In this document: piece after piece, positions 718 to 58,300 of the stretch | Layout of the letters: the number at the start of each line of letters is the position of its first letter | How positions within the stretch are numbered: the first letter of the stretch is position 1 | Source of the DNA: Saccoglossus kowalevskii | Lineage: Eukaryota; Hemichordata; Enteropneusta; Harrimaniidae | Assembly: GCF_000003605.2 (NCBI RefSeq) | Contig: NW_003121425.1 | Location: 83,949-147,948, forward strand | DNA: 64,000 nucleotides | Reading direction: 5' to 3' | Position numbers and translations under genes: made by a program | Notes under the pieces: model-generated | The model's input: the letters and a program-made list of their open reading frames with translations, nothing else | Databases searched by the model: none | Told to the model about the DNA's origin: nothing

Positions 718-1161
718 TCAAGGGTTAATGAGATGCACGCAATACTTCAGGCGCATAAACAATGGGGCACCACGGGGCAAAAAAAAAATATCACACACAT
801 TCGAATAAACAAAAACATACATCATATCTTTTTGTAAACGGTATACTCTTTTGGGAGGATGTGGTGGCCCTGAAAAGGGCCGTTGGTTTTGTGTATGAAA
901 GTTTCTACACGATGTCACGGCAAGAAAATCTTTGTCGTGAATGAAGAATACATCAGCAATCTCTTCACCAAGCTCTTCATCTGTCTCAAGATCTTCATAA
1001 ACCAGGTTATTTTCAGTGCCATCAACAGCGTTAGATATACCAGTCTTTTTGAAAGACTTTATGACAGTTTGAGACGGAACTTTATCCCATAATGCGACGA
1101 CCCATTCCACTACAGTCTGCTTAGTTGGGGCTTTGCGCTTTCCATTCGTCCCATTGGGCAT
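718..1161 (-). pseudogene. Pogo-like transposase C-terminal fragment
   Basis: A 147-codon open frame opens MPNGTNGKRKAPTKQTVVEW and continues through KSFKKTGISNAVDGTENNL and an acidic stretch (YEDLETDEELGEE). This is the typical tail of pogo-like DDE transposases, after the catalytic domain (basic linker, then WxxV, then KSFKxxGISNxxDGTE). The DDE core is absent, so it is a 5'-truncated relic or a small domesticated tail. It lies downstream of INPP1 exon 2 on the same strand, probably inside an INPP1 intron. The frame runs through a perfect histone-type stem-loop at 866-881, after which the translation no longer looks transposase-like. Plain DNA transposon family; related pieces lie at 57013-58300 and 61150-61340. 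Confidence 0.7.
842..890 (-). promoter_or_regulatory. Histone-type mRNA 3' stem-loop with HDE-like downstream element
   Basis: On the minus strand the sequence reads CCAAC, then GGCCCTTTTCAGGGCC (6-bp stem, 4-base TTTC loop, 866-881), then ACCACA. This matches the metazoan replication-dependent histone stem-loop bound by SLBP, including both flanks. About 13 bases downstream the strand reads CCAAAAGAG, a purine-rich stretch in the place of the U7 snRNP-binding histone downstream element. No histone reading frame is seen immediately upstream; the adjacent sequence is a pogo-like transposase tail. The motif match is direct; function is inferred. Confidence 0.7.
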
Positions 1162-1277
1162 GCATGTGACCTTTTAGTGGTTTATTTACGCCAACAGACA
1201 GAAGAAGGGACATCAAACCATCAACTTGAAACCCTGAAATAAACCATCGCAACTGAGCAAACAATATAAACACTTAC

Positions 1278-2376
1278 CAATAGGATCAATCCAGACAGCC
1301 AATGAACTAACTTCAATATCTAGATTACAACTCTGCACTTTTTCATCTTCCACATGTTGTATGTCTTCATGTATCACAGAAGCCAGTATATCAGCCGCTG
1401 CAGTGTTACCATCCAATGCAATTGATAGAAGAGTTGATGTTTCTTCTTTGGTAGCTTTCACCCCTACAGTAATGGTTTCACCCAATGTATTGGTAAATGT
1501 GTTATCTTCCTCACCATATATGTGATCTCGCATGCTTGGAAACTGAAAAACATGATGAATGAACGGATGGAAGGACAGATGGACAAACAATATTTGTTTA
1601 ACGTTTCCAGCCATTGAATGTCACTGTATACCTCTCCCGAATTTTGATGTGAACCAATTGCACAAAAATGAAAATATATATAGTACCGACACCATTTTCC
1701 ACAAAAAACATAATCCATGTTCGGGACTATGTGATACTCTAATAAGACTGTGTAGCCACTGATCTTCCTAATATAAGTTTATAGCAATGTGATGCCATGC
1801 TGAACACAAACAAGCGGACAGACAGATTCTCACCGACTCTGATGATATAGAGATTGGATATTACATTGAGCTGTCAAGATGCTCAATAAAAAAAAAATTG
1901 ATGTAAAATGCATGGCAGATTTCTGATTAACACATATAGAGGCTGCCATTTTCCCTGTTATTTTAGTTTTTCAAAGTATTCTGTGCGGATTTGTTTTGAA
2001 ATCTAACAGACCCCTGCGTTTTTAATGGTTAATCGCTTATACACAGTATATCATTTATATTAGACAACCTAATTGATAATTATTGGATTTACTAATTTAT
2101 TGATTGAGTATTTATTGATCCCTGACTGAATTATACTAAATCTAAAAGTTATTGAGCGATAAATAAGATTACCTTAGTTCCAATTTCATGTCTGACCATC
2201 TCTTGAATCAATACATCTGCCAAGGTCTTGAAATCCTGTATGAATCGTTTATTCTTCGCCTCACCAGTTTTCTCTTCAACCAAGAGCTCAAATAATGTCT
2301 GTTCCGACCGAATCGCCCGGGCCAGATTGGCAGACTTTTCGGACACCGCGACGAGAGACCTGAGAAAATCTGCCAT
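1278..2376 (-). CDS. INPP1: INPP1, inositol polyphosphate 1-phosphatase (partial: first two coding exons)
   Basis: This is the N-terminal part of a lithium-sensitive, Mg-dependent phosphatase that removes the 1-phosphate from inositol 1,4-bisphosphate and 1,3,4-trisphosphate in the cytosol. Coding exon 1 is 2376-2173 (start codon 2376-2374; it opens MADFLRSLVAVSEKSANLAR, close to human MSDILRELLCVSEKAANIAR). Exon 2 is 1542-1278. Splice sites are clean (donor GTAATC at 2172; acceptor TTTTTCAG at 1543; donor GTAAGTG at 1277) and phases fit: exon 1 ends phase 0 and exon 2 ends phase 1. The protein reads DFKTLADVL, then GEEDN (metal-site glutamate region), then WIDPI, whose next residue, the expected metal-binding Asp, would come from the next exon. 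About 156 of about 400 residues are present; the rest must lie left of base 1. An acceptor-like TTTTAG at 2389 suggests a separate 5' UTR exon. Recognition is by family memory, not alignment. Confidence 0.93.
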
Positions 2377-32638: not shown

Positions 32639-35600
32639 ATGCAGTCTACAGTAATATCGAAGGCGGCGCAGGCCGATATTCACGATTGGGGTGAGCTTGC
32701 TTTGTGTTTTTATACATTTTTATGAGAAAAAAACAAAACAGAATTTGGCGATGAAATTCCAAGTGGGATCAAGTTCGATAAGGTCGATCGAGTTCCCGCG
32801 ATCGCATTTTATTGGTTAAATTGATCACACTAATATCCCACATGTTGATGGTTTAATGATTGAATAGGAATACATAGATACACAGCTGCGCTCCACGCTG
32901 TGCCCGTGCATGGGGTCATACCACAAGAGTTCATGAACTCTTACGTTAAGGTCACCATTAAAATAACATTCATTATGTTTTATGGGAAGTTGTATTTATA
33001 TCTGAATAGTTAAACAGGCCTGCTAGTATTCTTCAGTTGCATAATCTTCATTGGACTGCTTAACTGCAGTGAAAAAATGTAATTTGTTAAAATCACCTGG
33101 CCTTGTATCTAATAAACACTGGTAAACAATAGAAAATGTAAAAAAAAATAACAAAATAAAACATTTTATATATTTGTAATAACGAAATTAAGAAATAACA
33201 CATAGTAGTGCATTGCAGACTCTTGTAAAACACCCCTCTTGCATAGTGGTCTGCCCATCAACTGACAGGTAAAGGTCACTGTGAGCTTGTTGGCACTCAG
33301 TCTGCCTGCGGAAGTGAATGTGGCATAGGACTTAAAAACTAAACGATGTCAGGACTGTTTGGTTCAGAATGGGAGACATTGGGTTCAGCGGCAATACGAA
33401 AGCCAAAAACCCAACTAAGCTGTGAGCAACTTATTACATTGTATTGTTATTTATAGATGTAACATTTTTAACGTGTGTATAACATCAGCGCACCTACCCC
33501 GGTATATACAAGTGACATATCCCAGAGTATGAGAAATACACACATATATTAAAATCTTTCTTGTTAATGATTTTAAATATTATAATATTATTTGATTTTG
33601 TTTCAGTTACTACCAGCATGGGCCGGACGATGCACATTGAGTTGGAAACCCCTGCCAACACACTCAGCATCTGTAGAGATGCATCACAAGTTGTCATCGC
33701 TGGTAGAACTTGTAAGTTGAATTTAAACTTGATTTAATGATTATGGCTATAAGGATTTCAGACCAGTGGAGTTGCTGTAAGCAATTTAAAAAAAATATCA
33801 TCTCCAGCTTTGTAAAAAATATTAGGCAGTTACTGTATTTACTTTCACTTTCATATCCTAAAGAAATAGATGCAGGGTTCCGTCTTACTTGCCATGTACC
33901 TATTATCTGTATGCATTGTTGCAAAGAAAAAAGTGTACACTTGGGAACCCAACATTAAAAAATGGGGTTACAATAGGGGATTTTCTGTTCATCTCAGGAT
34001 CTTACATATTGCACTAGAATCGAATGATTTGATTTTCAACTTAAATTTTTTTTTATAGTTCAATGTTGAAACATTGATCTTTGCGAGGGAAATATGCCAC
34101 TGAGGTATTTTTACTGCATCAAAATTGACTGTCATCAAATGTGTATAGCACATAATCATTATGAAGCATAAAAAGTATCCCCTAAATATTGTTTGCGTTC
34201 GTTGAATATCCCGTGTAGTGAATAACAAATTGTCAATTATTCTTTGTAGCTCTAGCATATTCTGATGAATATAATTTAACACTACTTTTTACATACAGTG
34301 TGGAACTGAAACAAAACTCTTACCTCAATACACAGGCATAGTGAATCATCTTGAGAGTGCACCATGAACACATTATGTTGGACAGGTGTACTAGGGTGTA
34401 ATCTGAGCCCTTCACTCTTTAACATTTTTATTAATGACATAACTAATACCCTGGACCATGAATCATGTGATCTACCAAATTTAAATAACACACCAATCAG
34501 CTGTCTAATGTATGCAGATGATATAGTTATTCTTTCTAAATCCAAAAGTGGCCTCCAGAATGCCCTTGATAATGTCTCAAAATACACACAGAAATGAAAA
34601 CTCGCTGTGAACACAGAAAAAAACAAAAATTATGGTTTTTAATAAAAATAATAAACTCTATGACATTCTTTTTTGAAGGGAATGAGATTAACATCGAGAG
34701 AAATTATAATTATTTAGGTATTGTTCTCATTCCTAATAGAAAATTTAAAGCTGCTATGAAACATCTGAAATACAAAGGAATGAAAGCATTATTCTCTTCG
34801 AAAGCCAAATTAGGTCATAATGAAAGCCTCAGTCCCTCACTATTGTTATCATTGTTTGATAAACTAATAAGACCAATTCTTACATATGGATGTGGAGTCT
34901 GGGCTGAAGAAAGTTCATTCAACTCTACTATAGAAGATGTACACCTCAGCTTCTGTCGCTTCATTCTAGGTGAATCAAAAAACACTTCGAAACAGGGTAT
35001 TTATAGTGAGTTGGGTAGATATCCTATCAATTCATTTATTAAAAAGCAGTTAATAAAATATACAAACCACCTAAACAAAATGAAAAACCCTATTATTAAG
35101 GAAGTTAAAAGTAAGTGGTACAATGAACTTAACTCAGTACTGAAATCTACAAATACAACACTATCAGATATTAACAATAATGAATTAAAATCGTCACAAT
35201 TGTCACAGATATATGATAAAATAAAAAATATATTTATAAAGCATTGGATTAACTCAATTAATGGTGAAAAAACAAAATACAAATAATACAAAAAACAAAC
35301 TGAGGACATACAACAAATTTAAAACAAACTTCATTTTGGAAAACTACTTAATTAAGCTAAAAAATAAAGAACTGAAAAGTACCCTAACTAAATTCAGACT
35401 TAGCAATCACAGTTTAAAAATTTAAAGTGGAATACACAACAGAATCAAAAGTAGCGACAGAATCTGCAAATTGTGTAATAAAAATGATATTGAAGATGAA
35501 CATCACTTCCCCATAATATGCCCAGTATATAGTAAAGAGAGGGTCATTTTATACAATGAAGCTGAAAAGATTATTCCTGACTTTACAAATCTTACACCTG

Positions 35601-53984: not shown

Positions 53985-56900
53985 TCAAAATGACTATTTT
54001 GAACTGTAGGCATTAGTCTGCGATTCAGCCAATAACGGAGAGAGAAATCTAGGTCAGAGGAAGCCCCATGACCTCAAGATTTTCTTCCTCATCATGTAAC
54101 ACATGATGAAGGTCAAGAAGTCAGCGCCATCTTGCTTTATGTTCACTCTCTTTTTTCTCCGCACCGAGTGTGCATTGTAGCAAAACAGTGCGGTTCAGTC
54201 AGCAGTTTTTCGACTGAGTTTTCTGAGGTACTCCTTCTGTGACTGTTGGTAACAGTAAGACGTGGTGTCTGGTAGGATAACATTTTTCCTTATTCTTATT
54301 AGGGGCCTGTGTCCTTTTTGTATCGCACACAAAAAAACTCGGTTGACACATTTGAACACTTTTGTAGGGCTGTATTGTGTCACTTTCAACTGCATACCTT
54401 GTTAATTCTTAGTGTAGCTAGAATGGCCGACTAGAAGAAAGGAAGCAGAGCTCCTCACCTCCTGTGTTGTCACCCCATAAGTCAACTCGGCCTTGCGGAA
54501 TTACAAGAAGGGGGCCAAGCAGGGCAGGATGTTGGTTTCGTCTCTCCCCCGCTTCCTGCCAGCCAGGGATCATCAGTCGGAGCCAGTACCAGGGGTTTTT
54601 CCCAGAGCACTGCCTCCTCATCCTCCTTGGAAGACCTGCAGGCGTTCCCAGAGGGGACTGACCCGCCTATCAGAAGTTTCATACCCTCACCCTCGATTCC
54701 GAAGAAGTCACTCTCGGTAGTGTCATGGCTTCCAGGATCCCAGGTGATGGATCCAATGCAACATCTAATGTTCGGCTCCCCTGGTCCGGCAGATTGCTGA
54801 ATGTGGCGGGCGCACAGGTGGTGTTGATGGGAGGACGTTAGTTGCCTGGGGAAGAATATAGTCCTAAGAGCCCAGGGTGGGATAACCTTATGACTAATAC
54901 TTTCTGCTGGACCGGTGTTTTTTATGGTACCGGAACCAACAGAGTCTGGAGCTAAACCTCACGCCCCGAAGGGATCCCTCGGTTCCTTTCCCCAGCCCAG
55001 GTACCATGAACTTAATTGGTAGGACAGATAAAAAGGGATTGCCGTGTTCTGTGGAGTTTCTCTGCATTTCAGTCAGAAACAGTCCAGTTGTGACCCATTA
55101 ACTTTTTGTCTGAAATCTCAGAGGCCAAACGCACCAGCCTCCAAAACCAACAGACACAATTGTTGGCTAGACATCGCATGGCCATGTGTGATATCCTGCA
55201 GTGTCATCTGGCTCTCTCGACAGGGAGTACCACTGTGCAGTGGGATGTCATTTTGGCAGTTTGTGTTTTTGCCGGTCACTGGGTGTGTCACCGCCTCAGT
55301 TACTAGACCTCCTCCTCCTCTTCAGGGAGCCACTGATCAGATGGTACAGGTGGAATCCTAGAGCCAGTTGGCTGCTGTCAAGGGCAAGCAGATGGGACTC
55401 CAAGCAGAGAAAAAGCAGCAGCTGAAGTCGGCGCCCACTGGCCAGAAGAAGCCAGGAGGCAAGTGCCCCTAATCTCCCAGGAAATAGAAGAGTAACACAG
55501 GATTTACTACACCCATAAGGCTTTCTAGTAAATCTAACAACTTCCCATCCACACCCGTCACATCAGCTGGTGTTTCTGGCCATGGACAAAGTAGCAAGCT
55601 TGGTGTGTCCATCGCAGTCTAGACAAACGTCTAGTCAGTATTCCCTCTGGCCCTCCAAGAATGCATGAAGAATGTCAGTTCACAGGGTAGTTCGTCAAGC
55701 TGCACTGTGGAGCCGCCCAGTGTAACACACTTTGTTGCAATACTGGTCATACTGGAAACTGGAGAGGCAAGTAACTCCATCGGACCAAGTGAGGGATGCC
55801 TTGCCCTTGTGGATGGCAATCGCCAACATCAGACAGGGGTTCCCTTGGACCCACTCACCACGGGTATGACTTCGATAACGGATGCCTCCCTCACAGGTTG
55901 TGGAGTGCACCTAATGGACGAACAAGTCCAAGGAATATGGCCCCTGCATTGGATTCAGGGTCGCCATATCAATTGGCTCGAACTGAAAGCAGTACACTTA
56001 GCACTGATACACTTTCTACCCATAGTTCGTGACCACAGAGTCTTGCTTCACACAGACAACACAGCGGTGGTCTCCTTCCACTCCAACTAGGAGGGGAGGC
56101 CATATTTCCATCGTTGTCAGCTCTGGCGGAGCAAATTCTCCATTGGTGCCTGAAATTCTATGTGGAGCTAATTGCCTTCCAGGGGTGATGGAACAGTAAA
56201 ATGGATACCCGCTCAGGGTTTCTAGAACACAGTGTTGTAGGTACCCAAATGGGTAGATTCCAGACTGCTGTGAGATGGTCCCACGATAGACCTGTTCATC
56301 ACATCCCTGAATGTCAAGCTCCTTACGTACGTGACATCCCTCCTGACTCCAGGATCATCTGCCATGGACGCATTATCGATCCAGTGGGCCCACATGGACG
56401 CATATGTCTTTCCTCCTTCTCGCTGTTTCACCTGGTAATCAACAAGGCCTGGCTTCCACTACTGTTGGAAATGTTAGTCAAGACAATGGTAGTGCTTCCG
56501 AACATTCCATATCTGCTGTCCCAACCAGACGGCACACTACCAATGAGCCCAGCAATCTACCATTTACACGCATGGAGGCTCTCAGTAGGCTCGCATAGAC
56601 GGAAGGTTTATCTGAGCGGGATGCCAATGTCTTGGCCTGGGCTAATAGGGGTTCAGGGCACGATCCACAGCTGATCGTCATCCCTCATTTGGCCAGTATT
56701 GTCAGCCAAGAAGTTCAGGAGAAGTTGCTTCTATGCCCAGTTCGAGCTTTGAGTTGCTATGAGAGGAGTACTAGGGAGTTGAGGCAAGGCAGCAAGCACA
56801 TGTAACGATTTGCTTTAAGTCCTCATATATGGAGAAAACAGGGGAGTGAGCATAAGGCAAGGTGGCGCTGACCTCTTGACCTTGGTCACGTGTTACATTA

Positions 56901-57007
56901 CGTGGAAGAAAATCTTGAGGTCATGGGGCTTCCCTTGACCTAGATTTCTCTCTCCGTCATTGGCTGAATTGCAGATTAATGCCTACAGTTCAAAATAGTC
57001 ATTTTGA
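53985..57007 (+). mobile_element. DIRS-like retrotransposon fossil with inverted terminal repeats
   Basis: Inverted terminal repeats of about 165-180 bases lie at 53985-54165 and 56845-57007; the outer 100 bases match at about 95%, less further in. Parts in order: a gag-like low-complexity region (about 54420-55450), a reverse transcriptase/RNase H remnant (about 55500-56440; the RNase H has ITDAS, WLELKAVHLAL and HTDNTAVVSF), and a tyrosine recombinase remnant (about 56500-56830; HLHAWRLS). Inverted repeats plus this domain set are typical of DIRS elements. At about 3 kb it is shorter than whole DIRS elements (about 4-6 kb). It is broken in many places (at least five) and looks moderately old. 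Confidence 0.8.
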
Positions 57008-57012
57008 CTGAC

Positions 57013-58300
57013 CGGTGTTTTTGGCGGGTATGAACTACTAGTAGAGTGGTTGATGTTGGGTTGGGTTGGGTCATCTACGCCGTTATTCATTCCTGAACAC
57101 ACACGGTCGCCATACAAATTCTGCAATTCTCGCTTCATTGCATCTTTAAAGATCTTATTCACGGACAAGTCAGGGGGCTGAAGACGAGCTGTGCAGCATG
57201 CTGGCACAAATACTACAGAGATCGTTCAACTTCTTCAAAAGTTCTTGACCGCGATGTGCTTTAAAAACATCAATTATGGCGACTGCCTGGAAGTTGAATC
57301 CTCGTCCTGGTTGCATTCACATACGTTATAATGATGTTATCGACGTATAGCATCATGAAATTATGATTTGACCAATGACTTTCTGTGTGCAAAACATCCC
57401 AAGCATCGGGAAAATAGTAGCCTGGGTGACAACGATCGGTAGTCCCCTTATATAATATCTGAGGTGGTAAAAAATTACCTGAAGCAGTCAATGCAAACAA
57501 TGCAGTAATTTGCTGCTTGTCATTCAGTCCAGCTATTGTGACTTGATGTGATCCTTGTTCTTCCATTGTCCGCTCGCCTGCTGGAATTATCGCAACACCG
57601 GTCTGGTCCCAGTTTATAACAAGCTCTTGGGTTACCCGTTCAGGGAAAGCTGCTTCAACGGCGGGAAAGTCATCTACAATTTTTTGACAGCATTTGTACC
57701 TTTTCTCTTAACGTAACCCATGCGATGAAGCAGCGATTTTGCTCGGTCCACGGTCAAGTTGATGTGACCCTCAAACTCTTGTAGTAAATTTCGATTTCCA
57801 TGTAGAAGTATACCTCGACCGATTGCAATACAAACGGCTGAATTAACAACACTGCCCTTGATGTGTTGCCATCGTACGAGTGATTGTACCTTGGAGTCGA
57901 GTTCACCACCAAACAGTACGGAACGTCCCTTTGTTGTCGGCAATGTGTTGACATTTTCTTTGCCACTCGGAATTGCTTTAAGATTGTTTCACTCACGAAC
58001 AACACCAAGCCTACCAAGTTCTTTAGTGAATTTTCTAGCAGCATTCATCACTCCGTTTACTGCATATTTGCCGATTTTAGCTCGAATATTTTCATCATAG
58101 TGCTGATAATTTCTGTGTTTTCGTTTCCGACTAGCGGATGTTATCTCTTCATTGGCAATGGCAATTACTTCAGGTGACAGTTTGTACTGTTTGATGTCGT
58201 TGATGTTATTTGGATCGAGCAAGTTTGTTTCACTTAGTGACGGTAATGGTGCTTTTTTCAAACCTTTTTATGAGATCGGTAGCCATGTTGTTGTGTCGGT
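57013..58300 (-). pseudogene. Pogo-like DDE transposase, broken
   Basis: Read on the minus strand from about 58290: an N-terminal part (about 58261-57989: KLSPEVIAIANEE and YQHYDENIRAKIGKYAVNG, a psq-like helix-turn-helix), then after a frame change a CENP-B/Tc5-type DNA-binding part (57950-57674: GRSVLFGGELDSKVQ, HINLTVDRAKSLLHRMGYVK), then the catalytic core in another frame (57690-57270: ELVINWDQTGVAI with the first Asp, FLPPQILYKG; then AIIDVFKAHRGQ with the second Asp near 57260), and finally LQPPDLSVNKIFKDAMKREL (57190-57130). At least three frame breaks, so not active. No clear terminal inverted repeats; the downstream end abuts the DIRS-like fossil. A plain DNA transposon of the Tc1/mariner superfamily. 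Confidence 0.85.

Follow-up and report, generated by a model that had tools for sequence, protein, structure and literature searches.

A histone-type stem-loop and downstream element behind pogo-type transposases, a candidate replication-coupled mRNA 3′ end in a transposon family

The stem-loop 3′ end is, to our knowledge, practically private to the replication-dependent histone genes, in whose pre-mRNAs ACCACA marks the cleavage side of the stem. For transposons of the pogo/Tigger type, poly(A) ends are the usual state. The Drosophila pogo transposase reportedly binds PCNA, and a connection with replication would be in keeping with that; in the open-access literature we found no paper that treats pogo and PCNA together. 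Among the papers listed from the same literature, judged mostly by title and start of the abstract, none links a transposase to a histone-type 3′ end. Among histone genes as such, one paper describes a stem-loop plus HDE in Hydractinia (PMC5011920), and another reports that histone mRNAs of the bivalve Lucina have a palindrome near the stop, to which some of them add purine-rich elements (PMC6210712). The subject here is a block of this type that is found next to transposon sequence.

In the window, by which we mean the whole 64-kb stretch of DNA that was analyzed, the minus strand carries an exact histone-type 3′ stem-loop, GGCCCTTTTCAGGGCC, at 866..881. The preliminary description had called it perfect and named its flanks, and both are present, CCAAC on the 5′ side of the stem at 882..886 and ACCACA on the 3′ side at 860..865. 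Read on the minus strand from 886 to 838, the order is CCAAC-GGCCCTTTTCAGGGCC-ACCACATCCTCCC-AAAAGAG-TATACCGT. An HDE-like element had been named as well; its core, AAAAGAG, is confirmed at 846..852 (−), but the context given for it had to be corrected to CCCAAAAGAG. The core begins 13 nt past the stem, which is the spacing seen in the host histone rows; of 18,270 stretches of 20 nt drawn at random from the window, 26 contain the 7-mer. TACCGT follows the HDE at 838..843 (−) and is, in the aligned rows, common to host histone genes and most of the transposon copies read. Rfam model RF00032 aligns at 886..841 over 46 of 46 model positions with 37.5 bits against a gathering score of 34 (E = 2.4 × 10−7), CCAAC lying inside the match. 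It is the only Rfam family to reach its gathering score in the window, where no second RF00032 row appears at E up to 5. The stem-loop is predicted to fold as a hairpin at −12.5 kcal/mol (z = −3.28), with 1 of 200 shuffles equally good. With up to 3 mismatches allowed, the only match to the 16-mer in the window is the one at 866..881; at that tolerance, 8 of 100 shuffles have one.

For the 21-nt pattern of flank plus stem, AAMGGCYCTTTTMAGRGCCAC, a second-order Markov model predicts 2.5 × 10−7 occurrences in the window, counting both strands. In a 257-Gb prokaryote collection the pattern has 1 match, in a Parabacteroides MAG (L001), which reads as chance, and in viral contigs it has 0 matches; searching viral and prokaryote contigs for the pogo C-terminus and the stem-loop gave nothing useful. 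That no histone gene lies nearby was also correctly noted before: tblastn with five histone probes finds none in the 64 kb, with a best E of 0.9, and a histone relic in the window is rejected on the same result.

What precedes the stem-loop is a piece of pogo transposase C-terminus at 934..1161 (−), or C1422:84882-85109 in genome coordinates, in a broken frame with no stop before the stem-loop. The pogo-like C-terminal frame of the preliminary description is borne out by matches to other copies in the genome, among them the C3323 copy, which has a DDE_1 domain (E = 4 × 10−17). A preceding piece, the VNKPLK region at 1133..1219 (−; C1422:85081-85167), is in a different frame and was matched at 72% identity in a genome search with a longer pogo query. 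Pfam gives no significant match to the window piece alone, BLASTP finds no similarity between the two pieces, and a search for solved structures of the pogo C-terminus gave none. The interval originally drawn, 842..1161, was too short, and the whole alignable remnant runs from 1220 to 601 (−), with 565 of 701 columns identical and 85 gap columns in a blastn alignment to the C59 copy. Its right terminal repeat is missing, and so is the 5′ part, which to judge from the C3323 copy would be about 1.6 kb. Three imperfect inverted pairs of 14–17 nt around it were considered as terminal repeats and none was convincing, because the ends of the remnant are missing. In the alignment to C59, the stop codon of C59 falls in a 23-nt gap of the window copy; the window frame changes between the pogo pieces and runs through the block without a stop. 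The window copy is therefore a fossil, a fragment left by one family of pogo-type DNA transposons, and, being broken, probably makes nothing. The preliminary description had offered either a transposase transcript that ends as histone mRNAs do or an old histone-gene junction taken up by the element. For the window copy, broken as it is, this is borne out only in part. The pairing of C-terminus and block is a trait of the transposon family, seen at 9 of 13 other loci, so that one refuting condition named in that description, a stem-loop not conserved in related copies, does not hold.

The host gene at this place is INPP1. Its first and second coding exons are at 2173..2376 and 1278..1543, both on the minus strand (E = 1.5 × 10−18 and 1.8 × 10−15 against INPP1 in the PDB; exon ends read by eye), and the stem-loop and pogo piece lie in an INPP1 intron, 3′ of coding exon 2 and in sense orientation. 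Elsewhere in the window, 56983-58267 (−) holds a second pogo-like relic of another kind, frameshifted, with a weak DDE_1 match (E = 0.046) and no RF00032 match nearby, and open frames at 34355-35286 (+) and 55635-56090 (+) resemble, by eye, pieces of non-LTR and DIRS-type reverse transcriptases.

The genome of the window (572 Mb in 4,830 contigs) was searched with the 76-aa pogo C-terminus, and 14 loci were found, including the window. They were found by protein, and therefore the stem-loop was not a selection criterion. Other pogo-like copies, to which the preliminary description had pointed for comparison, do carry the stem-loop: at 9 of the 13 other loci (C59, C3323, C2732, C2746, C1466, C2242, C1491a, C3902, and C1358) a stem-loop/HDE block lies downstream on the same strand, 58–194 nt past the protein match, and each of the 9 scores above all 200 shuffles of the same stretch. 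Relative to GGCCCTTTTCAGGGCC, the stem has no substitution in C3323, C1358, and the window, while six stems are mutated, with 1 substitution in C59, C2746, and C3902, 2 in C1466 and C1491a, and 3 in C2732. At C3902 (L019), two tandem stem-loop blocks stand behind one transposase, of which the first, AGCCCTTTTCAGAGCT, is degraded. The octamer ATTTGCAT, which we take to be the one known from H2B promoters, is found behind the stem-loop in pogo copies, at about 700–710 (−) in the window and at about +150 to +190 in L024 and L025.

The block is absent behind the C-terminus at the other 4 of the 13 loci, C1491b and the three that form a block-less clade in the same genome, C1946, C3427, and C4080. 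A single origin of the block was tried on the 13-row transposase tree and dropped, as the tree needs two changes and is weakly supported; a loss in one clade and another in one degenerate copy would fit it. A longer query brought in nine more contigs with weaker or partial matches (C2073, at 63–65% identity, C2222, C4313, C3574, C2268, C3943, C11, C1271, and C2261). None of them has an RF00032 row among the matches listed, a list that is also without six of the block-bearing loci (C59, C2732, C1466, C3902, C1358, and C1491a).

The C3323 copy gives the anatomy of the whole element. It is 2,290 bp long including both TA, with 764 internal bases read as N, and it starts TACCGTAAAATATCTAATTG and ends in an inverted copy of this with 1 mismatch in the first 24 positions. 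Its DDE_1 domain is in the last 173 codons. The C2746 copy has DDE_1 at E = 9 × 10−13 and also HTH_Tnp_Tc5, of the CENP-B/Tc5 type, at E = 3.2 × 10−4, just under its cut-off, where C3323 reads N. The right end of C59, with terminal repeat and TA, was recognized by eye. Between the terminal inverted repeats of C3323 the block lies shortly behind the stop codon. The stop-to-stem gap is 31 nt in C3323, C2746, C1466, and C2242, and 54, 60, 78, and 95 nt in C59, C2732, C3902, and C1358, respectively; in C1491a, as in the window, the frame runs through the block. Comparison with the 3′ ends of the host's histone genes, another line indicated at the outset, puts the 31 nt of C3323 inside the 24–33 nt range of 15 host genes. 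Around the block, C3323, C2242, and C3161 differ at only 0–3 of 417 nt, and their flanks are unrelated past the terminal TA, so these copies moved recently and took the module with them. The letters TACCGTA directly past the histone HDE are also the terminal letters of the pogo elements and of the T1 elements described below, an identity that may be coincidence or may hint at the route by which a module was captured.

The block has been conserved better than its surroundings. Mean pairwise identity over nine diverged pogo copies, taken in ungapped register with C2242 and C3161 excluded as near-copies of C3323, is 0.88 for the stem-loop and 0.89 for ACCACA, drops to 0.61 over the spacer, and is 0.76 for the HDE (0.92 among the six closest copies). 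On the 3′ side of the HDE it is 0.43 directly behind and 0.28–0.34 from 45 nt past the stem, and on the 5′ side of the stem it is 0.79, then 0.65, then 0.33–0.40 from −15 outward, the ungapped comparison understating the identity of flanks that have indels. The blastn match of the window to C3323 likewise stops at about +70. Synonymous difference is 0.58–0.93 in 34 of the 36 copy pairs, and the two close pairs are C59/window at 0.17 (97 codons) and C2746/C1466 at 0.22; nonsynonymous differences across the 36 pairs are 0.06–0.46. Over the 34-nt block, pairs without C1491a differ at 1–7 positions and pairs with it at 9–12. Stem-loop and HDE are thus kept between pogo copies whose synonymous sites are near saturation. 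A counter-example is C1466, whose stem is damaged and whose block departs at 3 of 34 positions from that of its close relative C2746.

Many host histone genes have a second hairpin, for example GTATGCCTAGCATAC, that ends 10–13 nt before the stem, and transposon copies have a hairpin at that position too, but with a different sequence: GTGTAGTTTTCACAC, GTGCTAACTTGCAC, GTTTTTACGTAAAAAC, GTGCTTCGGCAC, and GTTTCTATAAGGAAAC. Counting Watson-Crick pairs in stems of at least 4, the hairpin is present in 9 of the 14 representatives taken from transposons and in 8 of the 15 histone genes; shuffled sequences gave means of 1.70 and 1.42, respectively, and none of 300 shuffles reached the observed count in either set. 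With G-U pairs allowed, the counts are 10 of 14 (shuffle mean 4.83, 1 of 300 as high) and 12 of 15 (shuffle mean 4.71, 0 of 300 as high). The 14 representatives leave out the window copy, C1466, C2242, L055, L060, and further copies of the 1.5-kb family. In the window, 893..910 (−) is a degraded remnant of the accessory hairpin, with a best stem of 3 and no stem of 4 left.

Within 300 nt behind the protein match, AATAAA or ATTAAA is found in 0 of the 10 pogo copies with a stem-loop, the window included, versus 4 of the 4 without one; the 300-nt cut was chosen after the data had been seen, and at 400 nt 3 of the 10 become positive, C1466 having its signal at 301. This contrast is only suggestive, because the pogo copies are related.

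The block is found behind further elements in this genome. The strict stem pattern has 372 occurrences, versus 30 for a reversed control, and there are at least 73 RF00032 rows, at least 65 of them above the cut-off, from a scoring of 75 among 50,532 candidates. These sort into 17 histone, 5 pogo, 28 T1, 3 T2, and 2 T4 rows, 2 that were read and fit no group, and 16 unsorted; among the matches listed, the 57 classified rows thus have 38 in repeat families and 17 behind histone genes. T1 is a high-copy family of about 1.5 kb with terminal repeats TACCGTATTACCCCGGGCACGCGCCC and TA ends; the 8 copies for which both ends could be located measure 1,388–1,630 bp. No transposase was seen in the T1 copies read, where there is only a HIRAN-like scrap (E = 1.6 × 10−4, under its cut-off). 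Scored by the 3′ part alone, 20 of 40 T1 copies have an RF00032 row among the matches listed, and by eye the strict stem pattern is retained in 4 of the 10 T1 copies that lie on contigs up to C1112; the T1 stem shows no sign of constraint. T1 copies also have AATAAA 62–81 nt after the stem start in 20 of the 20 read, an argument against this family relying solely on the stem-loop.

T2 is a Tc1-type element of about 1.5 kb at three loci, with one intact 343-aa frame that matches DDE_3 (E = 4.1 × 10−20) and whose stop is 33 nt before the stem of the same histone-type block. Its ends, TACTCCTTC.. and ..GAGCTGTA, are weakly inverted, and two of the three copies share sequence past the left end. 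T4 (C26, C46, and C96) has about 270–340 nt in common on the 5′ side of the stem; in its C26 member (L003), an open frame at about +218 to +788 past the stem resembles, by eye, the start of a Penelope-like reverse transcriptase. C439 and C1112 hold tandem arrays of GGCCCTTCT[C/G]AGGGCC, with a spacing that is for the most part near 1,084 or 1,325 nt, that may or may not be a histone array; the TTCT loop occurs in one H4 gene elsewhere (L058).

We propose, with a probability of about 0.75 and on the strength of sequence comparison, that pogo elements captured the 3′-end module of histone genes and use it for a replication-coupled transposase mRNA without poly(A). The source would be the replication-dependent histone genes of the host. 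The module in the pogo family is complete: a short 3′ UTR containing the accessory hairpin leads into the SLBP-type stem-loop, and ACCACA, the HDE, and TACCGT follow. SLBP would bind the stem, the U7 snRNP would pair with the HDE, and the pre-mRNA would be cut just past ACCACA. The transposase mRNA would then lack poly(A), be abundant in S phase and early embryos, and be destroyed when replication stops. Transposition would in this way be coupled to the phase in which DNA replicates and cut-and-paste elements are able to increase in number, and this would be its benefit. Use as in histone genes is the simplest account because the block is in a full transposon, at a histone-like distance from the stop, has been kept, has moved, and also stands behind an unrelated transposase. 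A tie of transposase production to replication is probable because the signal was kept while the surrounding DNA diverged. Rfam finds no U7 snRNA match in the genome of the window, and likewise none in the control genomes; a U7-like pattern is at the control level, 13 versus 19. We lean slightly toward a wider claim, that unrelated families (pogo-type, Tc1-type, and the high-copy nonautonomous one) took over the whole module and that making transposase without poly(A), and coupled to S phase, is a strategy which mobile elements adopt recurrently.

Of the other ways to account for the block, the one that deserves most attention is repeated exchange of 3′ ends with host histone genes, by recapture or gene conversion, in which case the similarity would reflect recent exchange and not retention. 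It is a live rival because identity between pogo blocks and those of host histone genes reaches 95% (over 56 nt); moreover, blocks of several transposon families are 95–96% identical to one host histone block, and CATCCT, a spacer like that of histone genes, is present in the window, C59, and C1358. Still, five of the nine pogo copies have the spacer ATATT instead, and pogo copies have accessory hairpins of their own, and we regard exchange as possible and rather doubtful as the main source of the similarity. Even so, it would suggest that the module is advantageous, or at least easily acquired. Less likely again, and in our opinion improbable, is that an ancestral element acquired its stem-loop by recombination with a histone 3′ UTR and has since carried it unused, its real end being a poly(A) site downstream. 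The block is short, and T1, with its RF00032 row in half of the 40 copies scored among the matches listed and its AATAAA behind the stem, does retain it like a passenger; against this, diverged pogo copies are 0.76–0.89 identical in stem, ACCACA, and HDE versus 0.28–0.61 in spacer and flanks, with synonymous sites near saturation.

It is very unlikely that the block acts as DNA, drawing elements or integration to histone loci or insulating them, and is not an mRNA 3′ end. The resemblance of HDE plus TACCGT to the element termini TACCGTA would suit such a role, but sense orientation, a histone-like distance behind the stop, and hairpin pairing kept despite differing letters are features of RNA, and the insertions read are on many contigs, away from histone genes. 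We give as little weight to a use by the host at the window locus, where the block would provide INPP1 with a truncated, histone-type transcript end in the intron. Sense orientation directly past coding exon 2 and a perfect stem-loop behind a broken transposase frame speak for it; however, only a short stretch of INPP1 from its N-terminus would be made, and a fragment as near to C59 as this one could have kept its block by chance. A chance match, finally, which the preliminary description had already held unlikely, has a negligible probability and is rejected on the expectation for AAMGGCYCTTTTMAGRGCCAC, the RF00032 match, and the recurrence of the block at 9 of 13 related loci.

If pogo elements do use a captured histone 3′ end, transposition would be timed to replication in a new way, and the elements would supply natural non-histone substrates of SLBP and U7 that could show what the module alone confers. 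Their presence would also be a warning that stem-loop counts differ from histone-gene counts. To place these elements among known systems, they are like metazoan replication-dependent histone genes in stem-loop, ACCACA, HDE, TACCGT, stop distance, and accessory hairpin, and they differ in that the upstream gene is a transposase and that the processing would follow the histone pathway by analogy. They are like other pogo/Tigger-type transposons in DDE_1, inverted terminal repeats, TA ends, and a length of about 2.3 kb, and they differ in the histone-type 3′ end, which the C1946/C3427/C4080 clade does not have. T2, in turn, is like Tc1/IS630-type transposons in its DDE_3 domain, its length, and its intact frame, and differs from them in having the histone-type block closely behind the stop.
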